From positions 1-41,346 of IMG/VR virus record IMGVR_UViG_3300020433_000016: a stretch of 41,346 bases of DNA. One strand, given 5' to 3'. Within the stretch, counting starts at the first letter, position 1, and the number at the start of each line of letters is the position of its first letter. The notes under the pieces were generated by a model that was given only the letters and a program-made list of their open reading frames with translations, was not told the DNA's origin and did not search any database. Origin of the DNA: a virus. The translations under genes and the position numbers were made by a program. This document shows positions 12,468-40,084 of the stretch, piece by piece.

Positions 12468-12551
12468 TTATAAATATGATATAAAAATAAGTATAATTGT
12501 AATATATGGGATGACTGTCAAAAAGATAAATTCTAATAAATCTTCGTTCAT
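12468..12551 (-). CDS. Possible 27-aa membrane peptide
   Basis: ATG at 12551 with AAAGGACGG upstream; a short frame of acidic start and hydrophobic body (MNEDLLEFIFLTVIPYITII). It looks like a single membrane helix and is the first potential coding frame after the structured region. No second line of evidence supports translation. Confidence 0.4.
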   Translation of the reverse strand: MNEDLLEFIFLTVIPYITIILIFISYL

Positions 12552-12589
12552 AGTATACCGTCCTTTATTGTGTTCTGTCTTAGTGTATT

Positions 12590-13460
12590 GTAAAACAAAA
12601 CCTTACCGTAAGTAAATCGTTGCGGAATCGCTACTACTCCACGTACCATAGGCACGCGTTTTCGTCCTCGCAAAAGGGGTTTTTCTCCCCTAATGGACGG
12701 GTATTTCAACCCGTATTATGCCCCGTATCTGTTTCGGTATGGCGTAAAGCTTCTCTTCGGGGATGATGGTCCCCAATTCAGCAGGTCATTATCCTACCCA
12801 CCGTGGGCATACATGGTAATCCACAGAGAGAGTCTCATATGTGAGGGTCCGTCCTAACACCGCAAAAATGCTGTCGTGCTTACGTTCGGTCTCGTACTCC
12901 GTTCCCAGCTGTAGGGTCCCTATGGGTAAGGACTTTCAATACTCGAGACGTACTCTTCCTGCGTATTTCATGGGTCTCCCCTACCAACTCCGCGTATCGC
13001 TACACTTCGTCTCTTTAGCCAGTCTAATTCTCGCCCTCGGAAGGGCAAGCACCTGTACTCTCTAGGGTCATACTCTTACAGTACTTCCTATATTTTCGCA
13101 GGCTCTGCTGTCCTGCTGTGGATGTCTCGTTGCTACTGCGACTGCCACTGCCAAAGCTTAAGCATGGATTTTTGCAAAATGTCAGTTTCTCGACGAGAAA
13201 AAAGGTCTTGACAAGCTAAAACGAGGTCCTGGCTCTCCTACGCGTACGAATCCGTGTTTCCGCGGATATCAGGTACACGTGCACACGCGTTCGTGAGCTC
13301 AACGAGAATTGCAATGTCGGTCGGCATGCACACGGGGGTACTATATATATACCTACCCCCTACAGATTTTTTACGCTATTTTTAGGTTTTGCCCTCAGAG
13401 GAGTGGGGAGCCACAGGTAATGATTGAGAGAAGTATGGAGGCAGCTCCCCTTTATATGCG
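12590..13460 (-). ncRNA. Probable large structured non-coding RNA (giant ornate-RNA-like)
   Basis: About 0.85 kb without a credible gene at roughly 50% G+C (28/60, 30/60 and 33/60 in lines counted), beside flanks such as 11/60 at 12481-12540. Hairpin arms found by eye: 12675-12679/12687-12691, 12697-12702/12709-12714, 12757-12762/12771-12776, 12795-12800/12804-12809 (with outer 12788-12791/12817-12820), 12889-12894/12944-12949, 13030-13037/13042-13049, 13098-13102/13112-13116, 13186-13191/13195-13200, 13240-13247/13273-13280 enclosing 13250-13254/13263-13267, 13281-13287/13292-13298, 13334-13340/13354-13360 and 13405-13411/13444-13450. Four helices gain a G:U pair only on the minus strand, two only on the plus. 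The minus strand also has a GAGA loop closed by GGG/CCC and purine-rich joints. A T-rich end (TTTTGTTTT) follows near 12590. Size and setting recall GOLLD and ROOL; no family is confirmed and the ends are approximate. Confidence 0.55.
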
Positions 13461-13524: not shown

Positions 13525-14445
13525 ATGATTACTAGGTGCAGAAACAAGATTTTTCATGTATATAGTGTAGAAGATGCCAAGAAACACAACATAGTGTATA
13601 GTGATAAGTGGCGAGTCGCAAAAAAAGATGAATGGGTTTTGACTTCTGATAACAAAGTATTGCAAGTATTGAATGTTAGGCAAGAAAACAAAAAAGATAG
13701 AAAAAAGCCTGTAGTTTATATCCGTACTGGATTTGGCGAGACACCGACTTATAAAAGTAATTTATATGCAAGAAAGTATCCTGACCCTATTAATGATGCA
13801 GGTTTTATGTATGAAGTAACTAGAGATGTAAAGCCTACTGTATTACAAAAGCGTTTTATTGATGCTTTGAGGTTTAATGGAGAGATTGATCAGAATGGAA
13901 TGTGGACAAATGAAAGTATAATCAACGCGTATCAGTCTGTTTACTCAGATAACAACCCAACAAACTCATTGAAGCGTGCAAATATTATTTTAAAAAAAAA
14001 GAGGGTACAAGAACATATGAGCGAGCTAATGAAAGACAAACTAATGTCAAAAGGTTTGAATGATGATTATGTTGCTGAAAACTTAAAAAAGTTTGTAGAA
14101 GATAAGAAGATTAGTCCTAATGTAAGATTAAATGCTTTAAATCGCGTAAGTACACTTTTAGGACACGATGAAAAGAAAGTTGAGCAACTTGAAGGCGTTA
14201 CTACCATTGCAATATCTGAAGGCGATAAAAAGATGCTAGCTGAGTTTAGAAAGCAACTATCTGATAAAGAACTTGAAAATATTATTAAATTTGGAGATAT
14301 TAATGGAAACAATAAAAACAATAATGCCGATAATAAAAGAAGAATCAATAACCCTAGACCTAGCGACAAAAGTAGTAACAGTAGGAAAAAACAAGTATAT
14401 AGTAGAAAAGGGAGTGATGAATTTACTACAAGCACTAATAAGTGA
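13525..14445 (+). CDS. Terminase small subunit
   Basis: 306 residues. The first ~90 residues (IFHVYSVEDAKKHNIVYSDK, KKDEWVLTSDNKVLQVL, TPTYKSNLYARKYPD) form an N-terminal domain I associate with terminase small subunits of marine phages. The middle (LQKRFIDALRFNGEI, NESIINAYQSVYSDNNP, ANIILKKKRVQEHMSELM) is the DNA-recognising helical part. The last ~45 residues are low-complexity Asn/Lys/Arg/Ser and overlap another gene. No ribosome binding site lies at a useful distance (AAAAGG is 16 bases away), unlike most genes here. Role: recognising phage DNA for packaging with the large subunit. Confidence 0.7.
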   Translation: MITRCRNKIFHVYSVEDAKKHNIVYSDKWRVAKKDEWVLTSDNKVLQVLNVRQENKKDRKKPVVYIRTGFGETPTYKSNLYARKYPDPINDAGFMYEVTRDVKPTVLQKRFIDALRFNGEIDQNGMWTNESIINAYQSVYSDNNPTNSLKRANIILKKKRVQEHMSELMKDKLMSKGLNDDYVAENLKKFVEDKKISPNVRLNALNRVSTLLGHDEKKVEQLEGVTTIAISEGDKKMLAEFRKQLSDKELENIIKFGDINGNNKNNNADNKRRINNPRPSDKSSNSRKKQVYSRKGSDEFTTSTNK

Positions 14446-29524: not shown

Positions 29525-30960
29525 TGGCTAAAGAAGATTTATTAAATATTACTAATGCTCTTGTCGGATATCAAGCTGCTCAAGCAAGAAGAGATGCACA
29601 AAACAAACCTGATGATTTTGGCACCATAAAGTTTTTTAAGTTTACAAACGAGATTACAGGTCAAGAAGAACAAATATCATATACTGATCAAGCAGTTAGT
29701 AACGCTATTAGACTCGAAAATAATAATATAAACTCGCCTGATGATTTTTTTAACAATGCTATAAAAACAGGTCAGGGCATAGATTTAGCTGATAAGTTTG
29801 GTTATGGTTTTTATAATGAAAGTGATGTTCAAAAAGCACAACAAACTATATTTAGTCAAATTAAAAAAGTAAATCCAGAATATGGCAGTACAATATCTGC
29901 AGATGAGGCAAAAATATTATTAGATGTGCAAGGTTATCTAGATGATTATAGTAATATAAATGATAATATAGTAAAATATGGTCAGACTAATGCAAATTTT
30001 ATTAACGATGAAGTAAATCAAATATTTAATCAAATAACTGAAACATATAACACTGGTCAAAATTTATCTTCTAATCAGCAAAGATTATTTAAAAAACAAC
30101 TTCAAGATATTAATCAACTTGAAACAGATTCATTTGATGAGTTTACAAAAACAGGTAAAAGAAGTGGATTACCAGACCCAGAAAAAATAGATTTAAGTAC
30201 CCCTGCTAAAAGAGCTAAGTATGTACAAGATACATATGGTGACTTCTTTGTATTTAAAAACAATAAGACTAACAAAACAGTTATATCTAGAGAGAATGTA
30301 CCTTTAGGCGAAGACTTTGTGCCAGTAGGTAAATTAGGCACAGCTAAATTAGAAGGACTCTTTTTAACACAAGCTGCACTAGAAAATGACGGTGGCTATG
30401 ATATGAGAGATTTAGATAAAAGAGAAGAAGATAATTTAAATTTATATACTACTATGGTAAAAGCTATTCAAAGACGTGGTTTTATAAGTGTTAAAGGTCC
30501 AGATGGCGAGATGATTATGGTTCCATTAGAAAACTTACTACAGATTGTAAATAACCCAGCAAAAATAAAACAATTTGCACAAGATAATAATATTACTGAC
30601 GCTACAAATTTAGTAAAACTTAAAGAAGCTATAGACGAATCTCTTGAACTTTTTAAAACAGAAGCTGATATTACTTTTGAGCAATTACATAAAGAGTTTT
30701 CATGGTATTACAATTTAGAAAAACCTGTTCCAGATAAATATAAAGCTAAAGCAGTACAAAGAGATTTAGTAGATTTTATTCCTGCTTCTACTTTCGACCC
30801 ACAATTACAAGGCAGCACTGATGAATTGAATTTAATTCCAGGATTAAGTATAAATGAAAGTATAAAAAACCAAAAGAAAGCAACTAGCAACGAAGTAAAT
30901 ATTGGTGGCAAAAAATATTCAATACCTGAAGAAATTTTAAATCAATATGAAATTAAGTAA
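29524..30960 (+). CDS. Internal virion-type protein, 478 aa
   Basis: Start GTG overlapping the previous stop, AAGGA ten bases upstream. Mostly helical and Asn/Gln-rich with many aromatic residues (ADKFGYGFYNESDVQKAQQT, EEQISYTDQAVSNAIRLE), no transmembrane segment. Located between the membrane-active protein and the giant one and overlapping the latter by 14 bases, it corresponds in position to middle ejection proteins such as T7 gp15. That comparison is positional. Confidence 0.5.
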   Translation: MAKEDLLNITNALVGYQAAQARRDAQNKPDDFGTIKFFKFTNEITGQEEQISYTDQAVSNAIRLENNNINSPDDFFNNAIKTGQGIDLADKFGYGFYNESDVQKAQQTIFSQIKKVNPEYGSTISADEAKILLDVQGYLDDYSNINDNIVKYGQTNANFINDEVNQIFNQITETYNTGQNLSSNQQRLFKKQLQDINQLETDSFDEFTKTGKRSGLPDPEKIDLSTPAKRAKYVQDTYGDFFVFKNNKTNKTVISRENVPLGEDFVPVGKLGTAKLEGLFLTQAALENDGGYDMRDLDKREEDNLNLYTTMVKAIQRRGFISVKGPDGEMIMVPLENLLQIVNNPAKIKQFAQDNNITDATNLVKLKEAIDESLELFKTEADITFEQLHKEFSWYYNLEKPVPDKYKAKAVQRDLVDFIPASTFDPQLQGSTDELNLIPGLSINESIKNQKKATSNEVNIGGKKYSIPEEILNQYEIK

Positions 30961-33900
30961 AGAAGATTTTATAGGTCAGGTAAAAGAACAATACCCAGCT
31001 TATAAAGATATAGATGATGATGAGTTATATAACTCACTTATAGAACAATATCCAGACTATAAAGATTATATACAGGAAAGCCCTGTTCCTGCAGCACCTG
31101 CAGGTCAAGATGCGGACCTATATAACGATACTGCTGAATCACTTTTAGAAAAAGGTTTAGCACAAGTAAATACTCCCCCACTTGATGAGTTTGTTGACTC
31201 TGATTTAGATGCACCAACACAAAACTTCAAAATATTATCTGGTAATGGCTTGTTTGATTTTCAGCAATACAGAACATTAAACTATGATGACTATAAGGCT
31301 GCTCAAGATAAATATGCAAAAGACATGAATGTCTATGAAAACAATGTATTTAAAGGTGATGGATTGAGTGTTTTAGATGATGAGTCTATAGAGCTACAAT
31401 ACAAAACTTTCAAAGACCAGGGAGTTTTGAGAAAAACAGCAGAAGCTGAAGATGTTAGTTTAGATCAATTTAAAATAGATACCAAAGAAAGAAATCAAGC
31501 TGATATAAAGAAAAGAATAGATTTATTTAAAGATAATGATGAGACTGTTTTTTTTAGAAGAAAGAATGGTAGATTTTCATATGGTAAAATAAAAGAGTCA
31601 AACTTAGATGATGCGGAAAACAAAAGTGTTACTATTACATTAACTAATGGTAATGATATAAATGTAAATCTAGAAGATGTTGCATCAATTAATAATTATC
31701 AAAGAACAGTAGATAATCTTACTAAAGTTTGGAAAGATATATCAGATAAAAGTTATCCTGAGTTTTCTAATATGGAGCCAGGACTACAATCTGTGTTGTA
31801 TAAACTTGCTTCTGAAAATGATATAGATTCTTTTGTAAAGCTATACTTATTAAATCAACCTATGCCTATGGCTGACAGCGAAAAGAATGATGAATCACCT
31901 TATGTTTTACAAGAAACAGATGAAGAGCAGAAAATTTATAACTTAAGTATTGGACCTTACTTTGAAAATTTAGAAAGCGTAAAAGAAGTTTTATCAGATT
32001 ATTATTATAACATTGATACAAGAACTATAAATGGTGAAAAAGAATATTACTTTGAACATTTAAGACCTAAAAACTTTGATGTAAAAAATAAAGCTACAGT
32101 AACAGAAAACCTAATGGACTCTGTCGCTGAGGAATTGCAAAGAAAAATTGATACAAATGACGTTACCTCATCTGTTGTTAATGTGCAAGTTGTAAACCCA
32201 CAAGAGTATAAAACAGTTAAAGATGCTAATGTAAGACCTGATGTTTTATTGAACAATGAAATGATAAGAAAAGGTCAAAAGTTGTTTAACGATATAAAAA
32301 GCTATTCACCGCAATATATGCTTCTAGAAACATTAGAAGACTTTCAATCTAGAAACTATAAAGAATATTTAAAAGAGGATAATAAAACATTTGAAGGCAA
32401 TGTTGAAGGTATAGAAGATGGCAAGCTTCACTCTGATGATGTGCAATTTATAAATAACGTAAATAAAGAAGGGTTTGCAGTAAACAAAAAATACGGTATT
32501 GAATTATCTAATCTAGATAATACGCTACCTTTGACATTTGATTTAGCAGTTAATAGACCTAAAGAGTTTAAAGATAGAGTTGACAATGCATTCAAAATGT
32601 ATGGTAATGTAAAAAATAAAGATGATGTTAATTTTTCTACACTAGACCATGTTACTTTTGAGCAAGATGGCTCAGTACGTTTTCGTGGAACCTGGGTATT
32701 ACATCCAGTTATAAAGAAAAATGATAACTTTCCAAAAGATATATTTTTAGGCAACAGTTTAACAGGTCAAAGATATTTAGATGGTGAAGATGAGAAGATT
32801 GCAAACCCACTCACACTTACAACTCCTCTTTCATTTTATGGATCAACAGAAGAATCAGAGAAAAAATTCAAAGAAGATATAGTAGCAAAGCAAATACAGG
32901 CAAATACAACAACAGTTTTAGGAGTAGAAGTTGATTTTTTAGATATTGCAAGAGCAGTTTCAGGTACAGGTATATCGAATTTAATATATGGCGGCAAATC
33001 AAGTCCACATTTTTATGGTATTGAAGGAACTGAAAGTATTGCAAGTGAAGGAGATTTTAAATATCAAGTACCTGGTTTATCAGGAAAAGATGCAACTACT
33101 TTAAAAACAGATGGCGATTTATGGTACTGGGAGTTTATACCTGATGATAAAGAATTAGCTGCAGAGATTGTTGTTTCTGAAGAAAAAAGTTCATTGAAAA
33201 GAGTAATGGATGTTGGTTTAGATATGGAAAGCTACATTCGTTCTGGTTTTGCTGGAGCATCTGAATTTGCAGCATCGACTGTTACTTTTCCTTTAGCAGG
33301 TTTGGTGGGTATAGGTGGACTTGCAGTTAATAGGTCTAGTTATGATTCGTTTACAGAAACATACAATAAAAAAGTGTCTGCTAGTATGCAAAAAGTTATG
33401 AGACCTGTTGTTTCAGATGCTGGTGGTCAGTATGCTTTAGAAACTTTATTTACACCTATAACTTATTCAATTGATGCTATACATTCAGCAGGAGATGCAA
33501 TTACAAATTATACAGGTAATAGGTTTGTAGGAGATACAGCTTCTATTTTAGGGGAAACTGCACTGTTTGTTTTGATTGGTAAAAGTGCTAGAGGTGGATA
33601 TAATGTGGGAAAGAAATATATATCATCACCTAAAAAGATTGATCCGTATACTGGTAAGTCATCTAGAGAATATACTGTTAATAATGCTACGACAGATTTT
33701 ATGGAAGCTTTTAATAAAAAAAGTTGGCTACGAAACCAATTGTCAATAGGTACAACTGTTTTACTTGATAAAGCTTATGTTAAATATTTTCAACCATTTA
33801 AATATGAATTATTAAAAACACCATTAGCTGAGTCTATTGCTAAAGGTTTTAAGGTTGATTTAAAAAAGAATTTTGCTTTAGTAAAGTCTGATTTTCCAGT

Positions 33901-36900
33901 TAAAGGTGCAAATAAAATACAAGAAACTGTCTTTACTTTAGGACCTCCACATTTCCAAGTCTTGCCTAATTTTACTTTTAAAGCTGGCAAACTAACAAAA
34001 GAATTTAAATTTAAGAAGTATAGGCTACCACACTATAAAGTAAAGGTTGATAAGTATTTTACAGATATGAAAATGCCTGAAATATTTGCTGATTTTGCAT
34101 CAATAAATTATAGAGATTTTAGAACAAAATGGGGTCCTGATTTCAAACGAAATAAAATACCTATGGAGCAAGTTACAAAATGGCAGCCAGCATTTTTGAA
34201 AGATAAAAAGTTTGCAGGCTATGAAAAAAAGCAAGCAAGTTATTTAGAGCAATCAAAATATTCTAGGCTAGCAGATATAACTGATGAAATGTTTAATAAA
34301 AAATATCCAAGTAATGTAAAGCATGTCCCAATACCTACATCAGAAATAGCAAGAACTACACATTTAGAGCTTACTCCTAAAAAAGATGGTGTTGATGTTG
34401 TGGTTTCAAACAAACAAACAAAAAAAGAATATAAGCAAAAATATGATAACATGGATGATGCAGTTAGTGCTTTGAACTTTTTAAATCGTAACATAGCAAC
34501 TAAAGCTACAATATTTAAAAATGCAATAAGTTTTAATCATAATGCTAGTGTTAATGGATTTTTACAAAACCCAAATCTTAAAAACTACATGTTTTTTAAA
34601 GACAAAAATATATATGATAATAAAGTATCTAACCTTGATAGAACCACAATATCTAGTATTACTGTTCCAGAAGCAACACCACAAGTAGTGTTTGACATAT
34701 CAAATCAAATTATTACATCAAATCAAAAACTATTTGATAAGTATGCAGAAAATATGATTGTTACTGTTGACAAAGTGCAGGGCGGTTTAAAAATAAATGC
34801 AGAATTATTAACATCAATAGACAATAGACCTAATGTATTAAAGTTTGCACAAGCTAACAATTCAAGGTTAGTAGATGGCAATAATAATGTGGTTGCAGAA
34901 GCATCTTCTGATATGCATAATTTAAATAAAGACAAGTTAGATGCTAGAATAAAATCTTTGATCAAAGGTAAAGATATTAACATAGATATACCAACTGAAT
35001 TTGAAATACTTTACAATAAAAAGAGGCAAATAAATCAAAAAATAAATAAAGCTATATTAGAAATAGAAAAACTAAAAAGTAGTTTAGATAAATCTAAAGG
35101 CAATGATGCAAAAATATATCAGAGCCAGATAGATGGGTTTGACGAATTACTTGATGGTTTGTATAAAAGCAGAGATGAAATTAATAATGCATTATCTACT
35201 GGTGCTGTAGATATAACAAAACTGTATAGCGGAAATTTTAAAAACAGAAAAGTAACTAATATAGCATTTAATAAAGATAGCGATAAAATATACAGCAAAA
35301 TACAACCTAACAGCCCAAGAGAGTTTGCTGCAAAACTTGACCCTGAGTTATACCGTTCTTTAATGAAGAAGAAAAAATATAAAGAAAGAGATTGGCAAGT
35401 TTCAACACAGTTAATACAAGCATATTTGAAGAAAAATCCTGCTGAATTTGAAAATGCAAAGTACATAGTTTATAATAGAAATGATAATAAAAATGTTGTT
35501 ACGCCTGAGTTTTACAATATTGAAAATGGTAAATACTATAGCCCTGATAAAAATGTTGCACAATTATATGCAAATCAATCTGGTAAAAACAGAGAGTTTA
35601 TAGATGTTCCAGAGATACAAAATAAATATTCATTAGCTGAACCTGTAAAAAAAGTAGAGCCTGTGAAAACAAACCAAAGTAGGTGGGAAGATGATGTTGA
35701 AATTTTAGGTGAGCCAGGTCAAAATTCTATTGCAGTACCGAGAAGTTTAGATTCAGGGATTAAAACTAAAGATGGCATAAAATCTATACCTGTTAAAGAT
35801 ATAGATAAAATTGTTCCTGTTAGAGAATTAATTGAAAAAAGAAAACCTGTGAGCAAAGACGGTAAGAAAATAATAGGTCCATTAAAAAAATTAAAATCAG
35901 AAAAAGGCATAGTTTATCATGTTACTGAAACAAAAAATGTTCCAAGTATAAAAAAGCAAGGTTTAATTGTTGACCCTACAAGAAAACCATTATGGTTAAA
36001 ACAAGGAAACATGAAAGGTTATGGTAAGGGAGAAATATTTGCTTTTACAGACATTAATGATGCATTAAAATGGTCATCAAAAATGAATCTTGATTTACAA
36101 ATTCCTTTAGATAATATGTCTATTGTGCAAATAAAAAAAGACCCACAGTTGACAAAAAGAAAAGCAACTGTAAAAAAAGCTACACCTGCACCAAAGAAAA
36201 TAGCAAAAGTTGTTGATCAAACTAAAAAGAAGATGATTGAATTAAAGCCAGAACAGCTTGCTGAGCTAAGTTTAGAGGCACAAATAGGTTACTTGAGAGC
36301 TCAAGAAACATCTTTATTAAATAAAATACAGAAAAAATTTACCACAAAAGAGCTAGACAAACTAGGCTCAGGTTTTATAAACGACAAAAAAGTAACACAA
36401 TCTGAAAGAAAATTGTTTTCAAATATTACACAGACCATACAAAGAACAGAAAGACTTAGAAAACAAAAAATAGATAATGATGAGCTATTTAGCTGGTATA
36501 AACCTGGCACAGGTAATCAAAAGATATTAGTAAAAATGCCTATAGAAATAAGAGTATCTATAGATGGACTAGCTGCACCAGAAAAAAAGATTGCATCTAT
36601 GAGAGCAAAATTAAGCACTCTTGAGCCAGATACATATGACTTCTACTTTCAAGAAGCTTTGATAAAAAAAGAAAAAAAGAACTATGATGAATATCATAGA
36701 GAAAATATCACAGGTATTATAGAAGGTCTTAAATTATCTATTAAAGAGTATAGAGCAGATTTAAAAGCTTTGAAGTCAGGTGCTTTGAAACTTACATCAG
36801 CAGAGCAAAAACTAAGAATTGATGCATCAAAAAAAGCACAAAAGCTATTAGTGCAGTTTGAAGAAATAAGAAGAAAGAAAACACCTCTATATGACATGAG

Positions 36901-39900
36901 GATTACATCTGAATTAGTTCCTGGTATGAGAATACTTTTAGATAAATTTGATAGAATGAGCAAGTATTTTAAGGCTAAAAAAGAACCAGTACAGTTTTCA
37001 CCAGAACAAATAGATTTTTTAGTAAATCAAAGAGGTTTTACTAGACCTTTTGATGGTGGACATACTACAGGTGATGCAACATTTATTACCGATAATTTAT
37101 ATAGAAGGGCAGCCGATGCATACAATGGAACAGAAGCAAAAATAGCAAAAGAATTAAAGTTTGCAGAAAAATTAGATAACAAAGTTAAGACAATCCAAGA
37201 AGCTTGGGACATAAATACTTACATAGAAATGAATCTTTTACTCAAAAGAACACAGATTGCAAAAGGTTTAGTTGTTCCTGATGCCCTAAAAAATGGTAAT
37301 CCATATATAAAAGGCGATACATATACTGCTTTTGTGCAAAGAATGAAGAAGAACAAAAAAGGATTACAAGTAGCCAAAGAGCTTTCTAAAAAATATGAAG
37401 ATTTAAGAATGCAAATAAATCAATCATTAAGTCTTGTTGGCAGGCAAGAGTATATACAGTTTTTAGAGAGCTATATACCACACTATTGGGATTTACGAGG
37501 TGATGTAACATTTAAAAACTTTATAGACAATATAAAAGGTGTTGGTCCAAAAGATAGAAAAATGTCTGAGTTTGAGTCTCGCATGAGAACAGGTACACAA
37601 CAATTTAAAAAGAGAATTATACCAACATATGCAGATGGGATAGCTCTTGGACTAAAACCAAAGATACTAAAGCTTGGTGAAACTTATGCAAAGTATGCCG
37701 AGACTAATCTTATTGTTGCAAGAAATCAATTTTTACTAGATCAAATAAGAACTAGCTTAGATGAGTTTGGTAATCCTGTAGCGTATACACCTAAAGAATT
37801 ATCTAATGTACAAAAATCTTTACAGGACAAATTAAATCTAGCAGTAGAAAGTCGTGTAGACAAAAAGAATAGAGATAATATTCAAGCAGAAATAGAATAT
37901 TTTAATGATAAAAACTTTAAAGAATTCAATAGTGATTACATTCTAAGAATGAATGAGCCAGGTAAAAAATACAGAGCAGCATCTCCTAATAAAAAGATTT
38001 TAATTAGAAATGATTTTGCAAAGATACTAGGCCCTATACTACCACAAAATAAAATGTTCAACAATAAATATGTTAGAAGTTTGTATGTATTAAATAATAC
38101 ACAGAGAAGTGCATTTTTTACTTTATCATTCTTTCACTATGGTACATTGGCAGAAAGTGCAATAACAACTATGGCTAGATTAAAAAATCCTTTAGCTGGT
38201 CTTATAGCTATAGGCGAGTTTAACCCAAAACCAAGGGGCGTTCCTTTTACAAAAATATTAAAAAGTCCAAGGATGTCACCTTTCCAATTTAGATATTCGT
38301 TAGGTAAAAAAATATTAGATACTGAATTTTATGAAGAAATGGTTGGTGCTGGTATGGCAAGAGATGTATCAAAAATAGATTATCAGCATAGATACTTTAC
38401 AGGATTTATCGAAAAAACAATTAGAGATATACAGTTTGGAAGACTATCTGATTTTAAACTTTTAAACAATACTGCTATGACAAGTTTATTAAAGTTAGCT
38501 AATTTTCCATTAAAAAAACTTAATGAACATTTATGGACAACTTATCACCCAGCCTTGAAAATTGCATCTGCAAGCTATTGGTATAATGATTTTATAAAAC
38601 AATATCCAGATTTAGACCCATATGTTGCTAAAGCTGTAGTAGCAGAATTTGTTAACAACAGTTTTGGAGGTCAAGGACAATTTCAAATTCCAATAAGCAA
38701 AACTAAAGAATGGTTTAATAATGCTAGATTTAGGTCTGCTGCTGGATTTATTTTGCTTGCTCCTGACTGGACATATTCTGTACAAAATCAGTTTTGGAAT
38801 GCTTTTGGTAGAAGCAAAAAGTGGGATAGATATTATGGAACAGATTTGTATAGAAAATTGAGCAATAGACTTTACAGAAGAAACATTGCATATGGTGCTT
38901 TTACACTAGCATGGTTAATTGAGTTAACTAATTGGTCTTTAAATTACTATTTAGAAGGTAAAGAAGATGAATATGAGTTATTCGGAGATGGTTTGTTTCA
39001 CATAAAAGCAGATGCATGGAATAAATTTTTATATGAAAAAGCATTACCTGCTTTAGGTGCATCAGATGATACAAAGGTACCTTATTTTGCACCAGAGTCT
39101 ATCAAAACAGACTATGCAAAAGCTAAAGAAAAACAAAGAGTCATTAACTTTGCTAAACAGTTTAAAGAAGTTGCTGAACCTCTATCAAGTTTATTAAATA
39201 TACCATTTAATTTAACTTTAGGTAATAATATAGATGCTGTTGGTAGAAACTTTGCTGACATGACATTACAACAAAGAGATATTTTTACTGCAAAAGTAAG
39301 TCCTATTTTAAGAACTGTAGGCGAATTAAGCTTGAACTTTTTCCTTGATCAGAAAAATTTAAGTTTTCCTAAACAACCAGGACAAATATTAATAGATTCT
39401 TTTACACCTATATCATTTAGGCAAGACGGTCAAAGCTTTTTAAATACATTTCCTATAAAACAAAAACTTAGTTTATTCAATGCTAGAAAAAGAATGGACA
39501 ATCTAACCAAGCTTTATTATGATGAACAAGCTGAGTTTGATTTGTTTAATAAATATGGTGGTGGATATGCTAAAAACTACAGTGCAAAACAATTTTTGGC
39601 AAACAAACATGAGTTGTATGAAGATTTAATTAAAGTAATAAAGAAATCTAATCCTAAATTTAAAAGCAAAACAGAAATTAATGCTGCATGGAATAGAGCT
39701 GAAAAAGATTTATTTAAACAATTCAATAAAGAATTTAATCCTAAAGTATTTGGCAACTCTTACTCTAAAATAAGTGTAGAAAAATTAACTGACTTGGCAT
39801 ATAAACTAGCTAGGCTGCATAACAGCAGACTTGATTTATACGAATATTTAAATAAAAGAGGATTTACAATTGGGTACGAAGAAGGGTATGAACAGTACTC

Positions 39901-40084
39901 TAAATTACTTGATGATTTATATAGAGACCTAGACGGTAAAGATATTTATCCTTTACATAGAGCAAAGCTACCGACAAGATTTGGCAATGAAAAAGAATTT
40001 TTATGGTGGCAGAAAAACTTCAAGTATTATTTAACTGAAGAAGCTAAAAAACAGATAGTATTGGATTATTTAGAAGAAGATTAG
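30947..40084 (+). CDS. Giant internal virion/ejection protein, 3045 aa
   Basis: One uninterrupted frame covering 22% of the genome. N-terminus with two related segments (KEQYPAYKDIDDDELYNSLI and EQYPDYKDY). Possible membrane segments lie near 766-795 (FPLAGLVGIGGLAV) and 865-878. A coiled coil is likely at about 1355-1415. Around 1650-1745 a compact domain starts GIVYHVTETKNVPSIKKQGL and continues EIFAFTDINDALKWSSKMN. The C-terminal third has AFFTLSFFHYGTLAES near 2390 and AAGFILLAPDWTYSVQNQFW near 2600, resembling the LPD38-type domain of large polyvalent phage proteins. No lytic transglycosylase motif was seen. Probably ejected with the DNA to form a conduit or act in the host. Confidence 0.65.
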   Translation: MKLSKEDFIGQVKEQYPAYKDIDDDELYNSLIEQYPDYKDYIQESPVPAAPAGQDADLYNDTAESLLEKGLAQVNTPPLDEFVDSDLDAPTQNFKILSGNGLFDFQQYRTLNYDDYKAAQDKYAKDMNVYENNVFKGDGLSVLDDESIELQYKTFKDQGVLRKTAEAEDVSLDQFKIDTKERNQADIKKRIDLFKDNDETVFFRRKNGRFSYGKIKESNLDDAENKSVTITLTNGNDINVNLEDVASINNYQRTVDNLTKVWKDISDKSYPEFSNMEPGLQSVLYKLASENDIDSFVKLYLLNQPMPMADSEKNDESPYVLQETDEEQKIYNLSIGPYFENLESVKEVLSDYYYNIDTRTINGEKEYYFEHLRPKNFDVKNKATVTENLMDSVAEELQRKIDTNDVTSSVVNVQVVNPQEYKTVKDANVRPDVLLNNEMIRKGQKLFNDIKSYSPQYMLLETLEDFQSRNYKEYLKEDNKTFEGNVEGIEDGKLHSDDVQFINNVNKEGFAVNKKYGIELSNLDNTLPLTFDLAVNRPKEFKDRVDNAFKMYGNVKNKDDVNFSTLDHVTFEQDGSVRFRGTWVLHPVIKKNDNFPKDIFLGNSLTGQRYLDGEDEKIANPLTLTTPLSFYGSTEESEKKFKEDIVAKQIQANTTTVLGVEVDFLDIARAVSGTGISNLIYGGKSSPHFYGIEGTESIASEGDFKYQVPGLSGKDATTLKTDGDLWYWEFIPDDKELAAEIVVSEEKSSLKRVMDVGLDMESYIRSGFAGASEFAASTVTFPLAGLVGIGGLAVNRSSYDSFTETYNKKVSASMQKVMRPVVSDAGGQYALETLFTPITYSIDAIHSAGDAITNYTGNRFVGDTASILGETALFVLIGKSARGGYNVGKKYISSPKKIDPYTGKSSREYTVNNATTDFMEAFNKKSWLRNQLSIGTTVLLDKAYVKYFQPFKYELLKTPLAESIAKGFKVDLKKNFALVKSDFPVKGANKIQETVFTLGPPHFQVLPNFTFKAGKLTKEFKFKKYRLPHYKVKVDKYFTDMKMPEIFADFASINYRDFRTKWGPDFKRNKIPMEQVTKWQPAFLKDKKFAGYEKKQASYLEQSKYSRLADITDEMFNKKYPSNVKHVPIPTSEIARTTHLELTPKKDGVDVVVSNKQTKKEYKQKYDNMDDAVSALNFLNRNIATKATIFKNAISFNHNASVNGFLQNPNLKNYMFFKDKNIYDNKVSNLDRTTISSITVPEATPQVVFDISNQIITSNQKLFDKYAENMIVTVDKVQGGLKINAELLTSIDNRPNVLKFAQANNSRLVDGNNNVVAEASSDMHNLNKDKLDARIKSLIKGKDINIDIPTEFEILYNKKRQINQKINKAILEIEKLKSSLDKSKGNDAKIYQSQIDGFDELLDGLYKSRDEINNALSTGAVDITKLYSGNFKNRKVTNIAFNKDSDKIYSKIQPNSPREFAAKLDPELYRSLMKKKKYKERDWQVSTQLIQAYLKKNPAEFENAKYIVYNRNDNKNVVTPEFYNIENGKYYSPDKNVAQLYANQSGKNREFIDVPEIQNKYSLAEPVKKVEPVKTNQSRWEDDVEILGEPGQNSIAVPRSLDSGIKTKDGIKSIPVKDIDKIVPVRELIEKRKPVSKDGKKIIGPLKKLKSEKGIVYHVTETKNVPSIKKQGLIVDPTRKPLWLKQGNMKGYGKGEIFAFTDINDALKWSSKMNLDLQIPLDNMSIVQIKKDPQLTKRKATVKKATPAPKKIAKVVDQTKKKMIELKPEQLAELSLEAQIGYLRAQETSLLNKIQKKFTTKELDKLGSGFINDKKVTQSERKLFSNITQTIQRTERLRKQKIDNDELFSWYKPGTGNQKILVKMPIEIRVSIDGLAAPEKKIASMRAKLSTLEPDTYDFYFQEALIKKEKKNYDEYHRENITGIIEGLKLSIKEYRADLKALKSGALKLTSAEQKLRIDASKKAQKLLVQFEEIRRKKTPLYDMRITSELVPGMRILLDKFDRMSKYFKAKKEPVQFSPEQIDFLVNQRGFTRPFDGGHTTGDATFITDNLYRRAADAYNGTEAKIAKELKFAEKLDNKVKTIQEAWDINTYIEMNLLLKRTQIAKGLVVPDALKNGNPYIKGDTYTAFVQRMKKNKKGLQVAKELSKKYEDLRMQINQSLSLVGRQEYIQFLESYIPHYWDLRGDVTFKNFIDNIKGVGPKDRKMSEFESRMRTGTQQFKKRIIPTYADGIALGLKPKILKLGETYAKYAETNLIVARNQFLLDQIRTSLDEFGNPVAYTPKELSNVQKSLQDKLNLAVESRVDKKNRDNIQAEIEYFNDKNFKEFNSDYILRMNEPGKKYRAASPNKKILIRNDFAKILGPILPQNKMFNNKYVRSLYVLNNTQRSAFFTLSFFHYGTLAESAITTMARLKNPLAGLIAIGEFNPKPRGVPFTKILKSPRMSPFQFRYSLGKKILDTEFYEEMVGAGMARDVSKIDYQHRYFTGFIEKTIRDIQFGRLSDFKLLNNTAMTSLLKLANFPLKKLNEHLWTTYHPALKIASASYWYNDFIKQYPDLDPYVAKAVVAEFVNNSFGGQGQFQIPISKTKEWFNNARFRSAAGFILLAPDWTYSVQNQFWNAFGRSKKWDRYYGTDLYRKLSNRLYRRNIAYGAFTLAWLIELTNWSLNYYLEGKEDEYELFGDGLFHIKADAWNKFLYEKALPALGASDDTKVPYFAPESIKTDYAKAKEKQRVINFAKQFKEVAEPLSSLLNIPFNLTLGNNIDAVGRNFADMTLQQRDIFTAKVSPILRTVGELSLNFFLDQKNLSFPKQPGQILIDSFTPISFRQDGQSFLNTFPIKQKLSLFNARKRMDNLTKLYYDEQAEFDLFNKYGGGYAKNYSAKQFLANKHELYEDLIKVIKKSNPKFKSKTEINAAWNRAEKDLFKQFNKEFNPKVFGNSYSKISVEKLTDLAYKLARLHNSRLDLYEYLNKRGFTIGYEEGYEQYSKLLDDLYRDLDGKDIYPLHRAKLPTRFGNEKEFLWWQKNFKYYLTEEAKKQIVLDYLEED

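Follow-up and report, generated by a model that had tools for sequence, protein, structure and literature searches.

A candidate large structured RNA at the head of the early genes in a clade of uncultivated phages

What is encoded by a long gene-free island lying between two gene blocks of opposite orientation in a phage genome? The window considered here (the whole stretch of 41,346 nucleotides that was analysed, positions 1 to 41,346 of the IMG/VR virus record IMGVR_UViG_3300020433_000016) comes from an uncultivated phage that encodes a P22-type portal (PF16510) and a large terminase (TerL). The island (12590–13460) is flanked by a minus-strand gene block on its left and a plus-strand gene block on its right. 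Its G+C content is 49.4%, versus 33.2% for the whole window, and its open reading frames (53–107 aa) are purely mechanical: none has a Pfam match, and PHROG gives only E-values of 0.13 or worse. The description of a gene-free island of about 50% G+C in an AT-rich phage, made in a first-pass annotation, is thus confirmed. That annotation further proposed that this 0.85-kb island between the two blocks is a giant structured RNA candidate. Our analysis indicates that the island is composite: its right third (about 13170–13390) is regulatory DNA, and its left two thirds (about 13150–12574, minus strand) are a structured-RNA candidate. The most likely product of the island is a folded RNA of about 600 bases that heads the early genes and belongs to a previously undescribed family shared with the nearest relatives of the phage.

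The early genes, on the minus strand, occupy the region left of position 12551, and the plus-strand late genes begin at 13525. The first late gene (13525–14445, plus strand) encodes a 306-aa protein without any Pfam or PHROG match; it lies directly before TerL, is conserved in relatives and is identified by its position alone as a putative terminase small subunit (TerS). On the other side, the putative first early reading frame (12468–12551, minus strand), read from the sequence, would encode a 27-aa hydrophobic peptide, MNEDLLEFIFLTVIPYITIILIFISYL. It directly follows the terminal motif of the leader (see below) and is preceded, 10–15 nt upstream, by AAAGGA.

Compared with shuffled sequences, the whole 901-nt stretch has minimum free energy z-scores of -1.86 on the minus strand and -1.27 on the plus strand. 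Between 13170 and 12560, they are -2.2 to -2.45 on the minus strand versus -0.03 on the plus strand, -2.45 being a modest value, and local windows over 13141–13420 fold unremarkably on both strands. The island had been described as dense in strong helices, and by these values its helix density exceeds chance only in part. Because of the strand asymmetry, a plus-strand structured leader of the late genes was rejected for the left part. The candidate leader RNA (12574–13150, minus strand; about 0.58–0.6 kb) is supported by its folding, by the lack of genes and by a position and direction identical to those of the covariation-supported RNAs of relatives. Its 5' end probably lies near 13150 and its 3' part runs into the early mRNA. 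It appears as the leader of the early operon and not as a free-standing RNA between the blocks. A scan of the window called neither a promoter nor a terminator that would fit the RNA.

The right third carries several DNA elements. The sequence TTTTGCAAAAATCC (13166–13179, minus strand), found by eye, contains TTGCAA and is a possible promoter element; TTGCAA is also seen by eye just upstream of the RNA in L002, L003 and L004, and the promoter scan called no minus-strand site at this position. A perfect 15-bp palindrome, TTTCTCGACGAGAAA (13186–13200), looks like an operator, and variants of the TCTCGTCGA type occur at the same place in five relatives (L163, L207, L209, L211, L222) and, by eye, in L002. 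Further right, the hexamer GTTGAG (13298–13303, minus strand; CTCAAC on the plus strand) is conserved in nearly all relatives. It is followed by a terminator-like hairpin and T-run (13334–13372, plus strand) located 150 bp before the terS-like gene. This block is shared by 35 phage loci, one of them the window, and the plus strand folds better in 25 of them; the terminator scan did not call it in the window.

Alternating purine-pyrimidine tracts, which are prone to form Z-DNA, occupy 13239–13290 (TACGCGTACG at 13239–13248 and GTACACGTGCACACGCGT at 13273–13290). They account for the nested helices noted at 13240–13280 in the first-pass annotation: helices can indeed be drawn there, but in an alternating DNA tract outside the RNA-like part. 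When a qualifying run is defined as at least 15 alternating bases with a G+C content of at least 40%, 13273–13290 is the only one in the window. Eleven loci of the clade contain 14 qualifying runs, every one located 450–950 bp upstream of terS, with no other in 95 kb; in unrelated viral DNA, the density of such runs is 0.004 per 500 nt. The tract thus has one fixed genome place, and its length varies from 15 to 33 nt across the clade (L005, L009, L003, L008, L010, L004, L002, L012, L013). Between pairs formed by L003, L008 and L010, it differs by 19–33%, versus 2–4% for the terS-side flank and 8–15% for the far flank. Summed over these three pairs, which are not independent, 18 of the 22 changes are transitions, which keep the alternation; CpG decay could contribute to them. 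From its sequence, the tract, for which the window region 13239–13334 was considered, is a candidate Z-DNA element. Since the right third is regulatory DNA and bears a conserved signature of its own that is not that of an RNA, the large minus-strand RNA is supported at a size of about 0.6 kb and not 0.85 kb.

Relatives were found through TerL (33 loci) and the terS-like protein (80 loci), all of them uncultivated. Isolate phages yielded no match to the terS-like protein; for TerL, the best among the matches listed to isolate phages is below 30% identity, and a nucleotide search against them gave only chance-level matches covering about 3% of the query. A genome collection scanned with TerL and with the leader pattern yielded nothing and pointed to no host. 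Where enough sequence exists, the closest relatives have roughly 1–1.9 kb without genes upstream of terS. An RNA is present at the same place in nine relatives, five of which (L005, L009, L003, L044, L008) could be aligned (alignment A3); two MAFFT alignments, A5 and A6, were misaligned and excluded. Of the 92 pairs that RNAalifold predicted from A3, 41 show changes on both sides. Under different settings, covariation is seen in 53 of 128 pairs, versus a mean of 10.7 and a maximum of 16 in column shuffles. The fold energy is -151 versus -78 ± 6 for shuffled alignments, and the minus strand outdoes the plus strand (-151 versus -124). The covariation that the first-pass annotation proposed to look for in related phages is found in these five relatives, but the window RNA cannot be aligned with them beyond its core and terminal motif. 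In the relatives, the RNA always lies immediately ahead of the first early gene and in the same direction; its length varies greatly and its sequence drifts fast.

Several other features of these loci can be mentioned. Five relatives (L080, L166, L181, L177, L178) have shorter leaders of about 140 nt that share the terminal motif of the family (here AATACACCAAGACAA), located just before AAGGAGG and a start codon, and a GAGCC..GGCTC closing stem occurs in the short leaders L080, L181 and L185. The pattern GGGACAAnnGG..AACAGCAACTAA was discarded, being confined to three relatives. The interval separating terS from the terminator-like block contains a second structured block of about 300 bp (L005:2110-2465, and the corresponding position in L002, L003, L004, L009, L010, L011, L012, L013 and L031). 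It is more conserved, with the motifs ACGGCTCC, AAGGGGTT, GTCGAAGR and GTCTCTATCC; RNAalifold gives it an energy of -78.7 versus -44 ± 5 when shuffled and 22 covarying pairs versus at most 15, its strand being uncertain. In the window, these motifs were not found together.

The window RNA is linked to its relatives by synteny, by a core of 65 nt and by a motif of 16 nt; the sequences can be aligned nowhere else. The core (12747–12811, minus strand), located by a covariance model and by a descriptor, consists of two hairpins arranged as CGGUnnnn-loop-nnnnUGCUG, a linker, a hairpin and GAAGAG. In nine relatives, 95% of its cells are paired and its covariation score is 0.81, versus 0.24 when shuffled (0 of 500 shuffles). 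A covariance model built from these nine relatives, the window being excluded, gives 24.6 bits to 12811–12747, the best match both in the window and in 848 kb (both strands), where the next best reaches 16.7 bits. The descriptor has seven distinct matches in 3.6 Mb (both strands), all in these leaders and including that of the window, whereas 10.9 Mb of shuffled sequence gave no match; the tolerances of the descriptor were chosen after the window candidate had been seen. Without L031 and L012, the two closest-looking cores, the model gives the window 13.9 bits, less than a coding false positive (17.1 bits), and the genuine L031 obtains only 16.7 bits. Because of these post hoc tolerances and of the 13.9 bits obtained with the leave-out model, membership of the window RNA in the leader-RNA family of its relatives is regarded as likely, with rather high confidence, and not as proven. 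Pattern scans for further members of the core family returned only the known ones and chance matches in coding sequences. The second-best match to the core model in the window (38904–38995, plus strand; 16.7–17.8 bits) was taken as a chance match and used as a yardstick for false positives. It lies inside the gene of a 3045-aa protein (30947–40084, plus strand) that has no Pfam or PHROG match.

The terminal motif of the leader, AATACACTAAGACAGA (12574–12589, minus strand), comprises 16 bases and is shared with relatives. Its exact form AATACACHAAGACARA is found in ten distinct regions upstream of terS, window included, and shuffles predict 0 chance matches in the window. It is located near the 3' end of the leader and ahead of the first early gene. 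In several relatives, a ribosome-binding site and an ATG come after it, and in L080, L166, L177, L178 and L181 as well as in the window it immediately precedes the ribosome-binding site. Its reading as a sigma-70 -10 box was rejected, as position 2 of the hexamer is, by eye, not conserved across relatives.

In many relatives, the RNA ends with a tRNA-like module made of a T-arm and an acceptor stem. This module terminates the RNA in L155, L158, L156, L161, L031, L162 and L160 (the same contigs as L005, L009, L003, L012, L031, L002 and L004, respectively) and can also be read in L044. It has a near-constant T-loop (TTCGAAT or similar) and a 7-bp acceptor stem that varies in sequence from phage to phage, and the first early ATG comes within some tens of bases after it. 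The module is usual without being universal: it occurs in most relatives whose RNA end is covered by sequence, and it is absent from the window RNA. Since neither ARAGORN nor Rfam recognises a tRNA at the module in the loci of the relatives, it is considered an imitation of the acceptor and T-arm of a tRNA. No tRNA gene was found in the window or in the searched loci L002–L013 and L031. T-arm and acceptor stem without a normal anticodon arm also characterise tmRNA and viral tRNA-like structures. Here, however, a whole minihelix stands at the 3' end of the leader, neither Rfam nor ARAGORN finds a tmRNA, and the window has no such module.

The RNA is thus supported in the relatives by a covarying fold, a constant position and direction and, usually, the tRNA-like module, and in the window by strand-specific folding, the two-hairpin core, the terminal motif and synteny. 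The best overall explanation, in which we place slightly more than even confidence, is that the early operon begins with a large structured leader RNA of about 0.6 kb constituting a new family of this phage clade. The following model can be proposed for its production. An early promoter around 13180 would start transcription near 13150, and the leader RNA would be the first part of the early transcript, made first after infection. In the relatives, host RNase P and RNase Z would cut at the tRNA-like module, and a stable noncoding RNA would be freed from the early mRNA. In the phage of the window, which lacks the module, the RNA would either remain part of the mRNA or be cleaved by other means. 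For the relatives, we lean slightly towards such a release, and the freed RNA may act in trans, as is possibly the case for GOLLD and ROOL. A more elaborate proposal is tentative and, on balance, doubtful: that of a new class of large RNAs, in which an early-transcript leader is freed by a built-in tRNA imitation, the divergent promoter region is marked by a conserved Z-DNA-forming tract and the phage of the window is a member that has lost the imitation.

Alternatively, the leader might never be released and might act in cis, either by making the polymerase resist terminators along the long early operon, as do the put antiterminator RNAs of phage HK022, or by gating the first early gene, as a translational control leader would. 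Like put, the leader is a structured RNA with which an early phage operon begins. It lies directly 5' of this operon in all members, no terminator separates it from the gene, the window and the five relatives named above have the terminal motif immediately ahead of the ribosome-binding site, and the sequence of the leader drifts fast. However, put RNAs are far shorter than the leader described here and were not recovered as a family in the searches made; the length of the leader varies greatly, and the module that most close relatives carry between the RNA and the gene resembles a cutting signal. Such a cis-acting leader is conceivable but not probable. It is improbable that the island functions only as DNA (regulatory region, replication origin or packaging site) and that its RNA structure is incidental: the Z-DNA-prone tract, the palindrome and the terminator-like block of the right third would agree with this, but the left part shows strong covariation and strand bias in the relatives, and strand-specific folding and the core in the window.

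The structured RNA favoured here can finally be compared with known large RNAs. GOLLD and ROOL are large phage RNAs of unknown function that are often located near tRNA islands, and both form homo-oligomeric RNA-only cages (PMC12286853). ROOL env-120 has 659 nt, and GOLLD, which has marine members, is made of a conserved part and a variable part and sometimes harbours tRNAs inside its linker (PMC12286853). The leader RNA resembles ROOL as a large, structured, noncoding, phage-borne RNA of unknown function with a tRNA association (the module of the relatives), and resembles GOLLD as a large phage-borne RNA with a conserved and a variable part. It differs from ROOL by its place as leader of an early operon and by the tRNA-like 3' module that relatives carry themselves instead of nearby genuine tRNA genes, and from GOLLD by its shorter length and a different conserved core; neither is matched through Rfam. 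Scans at gathering and permissive thresholds up to E 10 gave a single chance match in the window region, outside the RNA, and only chance-level matches in relatives. The ROOL covariance model had no match at any threshold used, that of GOLLD (universally conserved 3' region) had none, and neither RNA was matched in six relatives. Models of OLE, HEARO, raiA and group I or II introns likewise had no match up to E 10; a group I intron or a tmRNA was rejected, having no support from Rfam or ARAGORN. A large structured minus-strand RNA outside the Rfam families, as first proposed, is supported. A divergent GOLLD, ROOL or other known large RNA of Rfam is very improbable, since the comparable size, the occurrence in phages and, in relatives, a sort of tRNA association (PMC12286853) are set against these negative scans and against a module that contains no recognisable tRNA and is part of the leader, where GOLLD and ROOL associate with genuine tRNAs. 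From its sequence and surroundings, the leader RNA would be like GOLLD and ROOL in size and setting, and perhaps in its working, while being a member of neither.

No function is yet known for GOLLD and ROOL. Another family of large phage RNAs, unrelated to these two, fixed at the head of the early genes and equipped with a built-in processing signal, would provide a position and a timing from which function can be probed. The alternating tract beside the RNA would be a rare case of a virus keeping its Z-DNA potential while the bases change.
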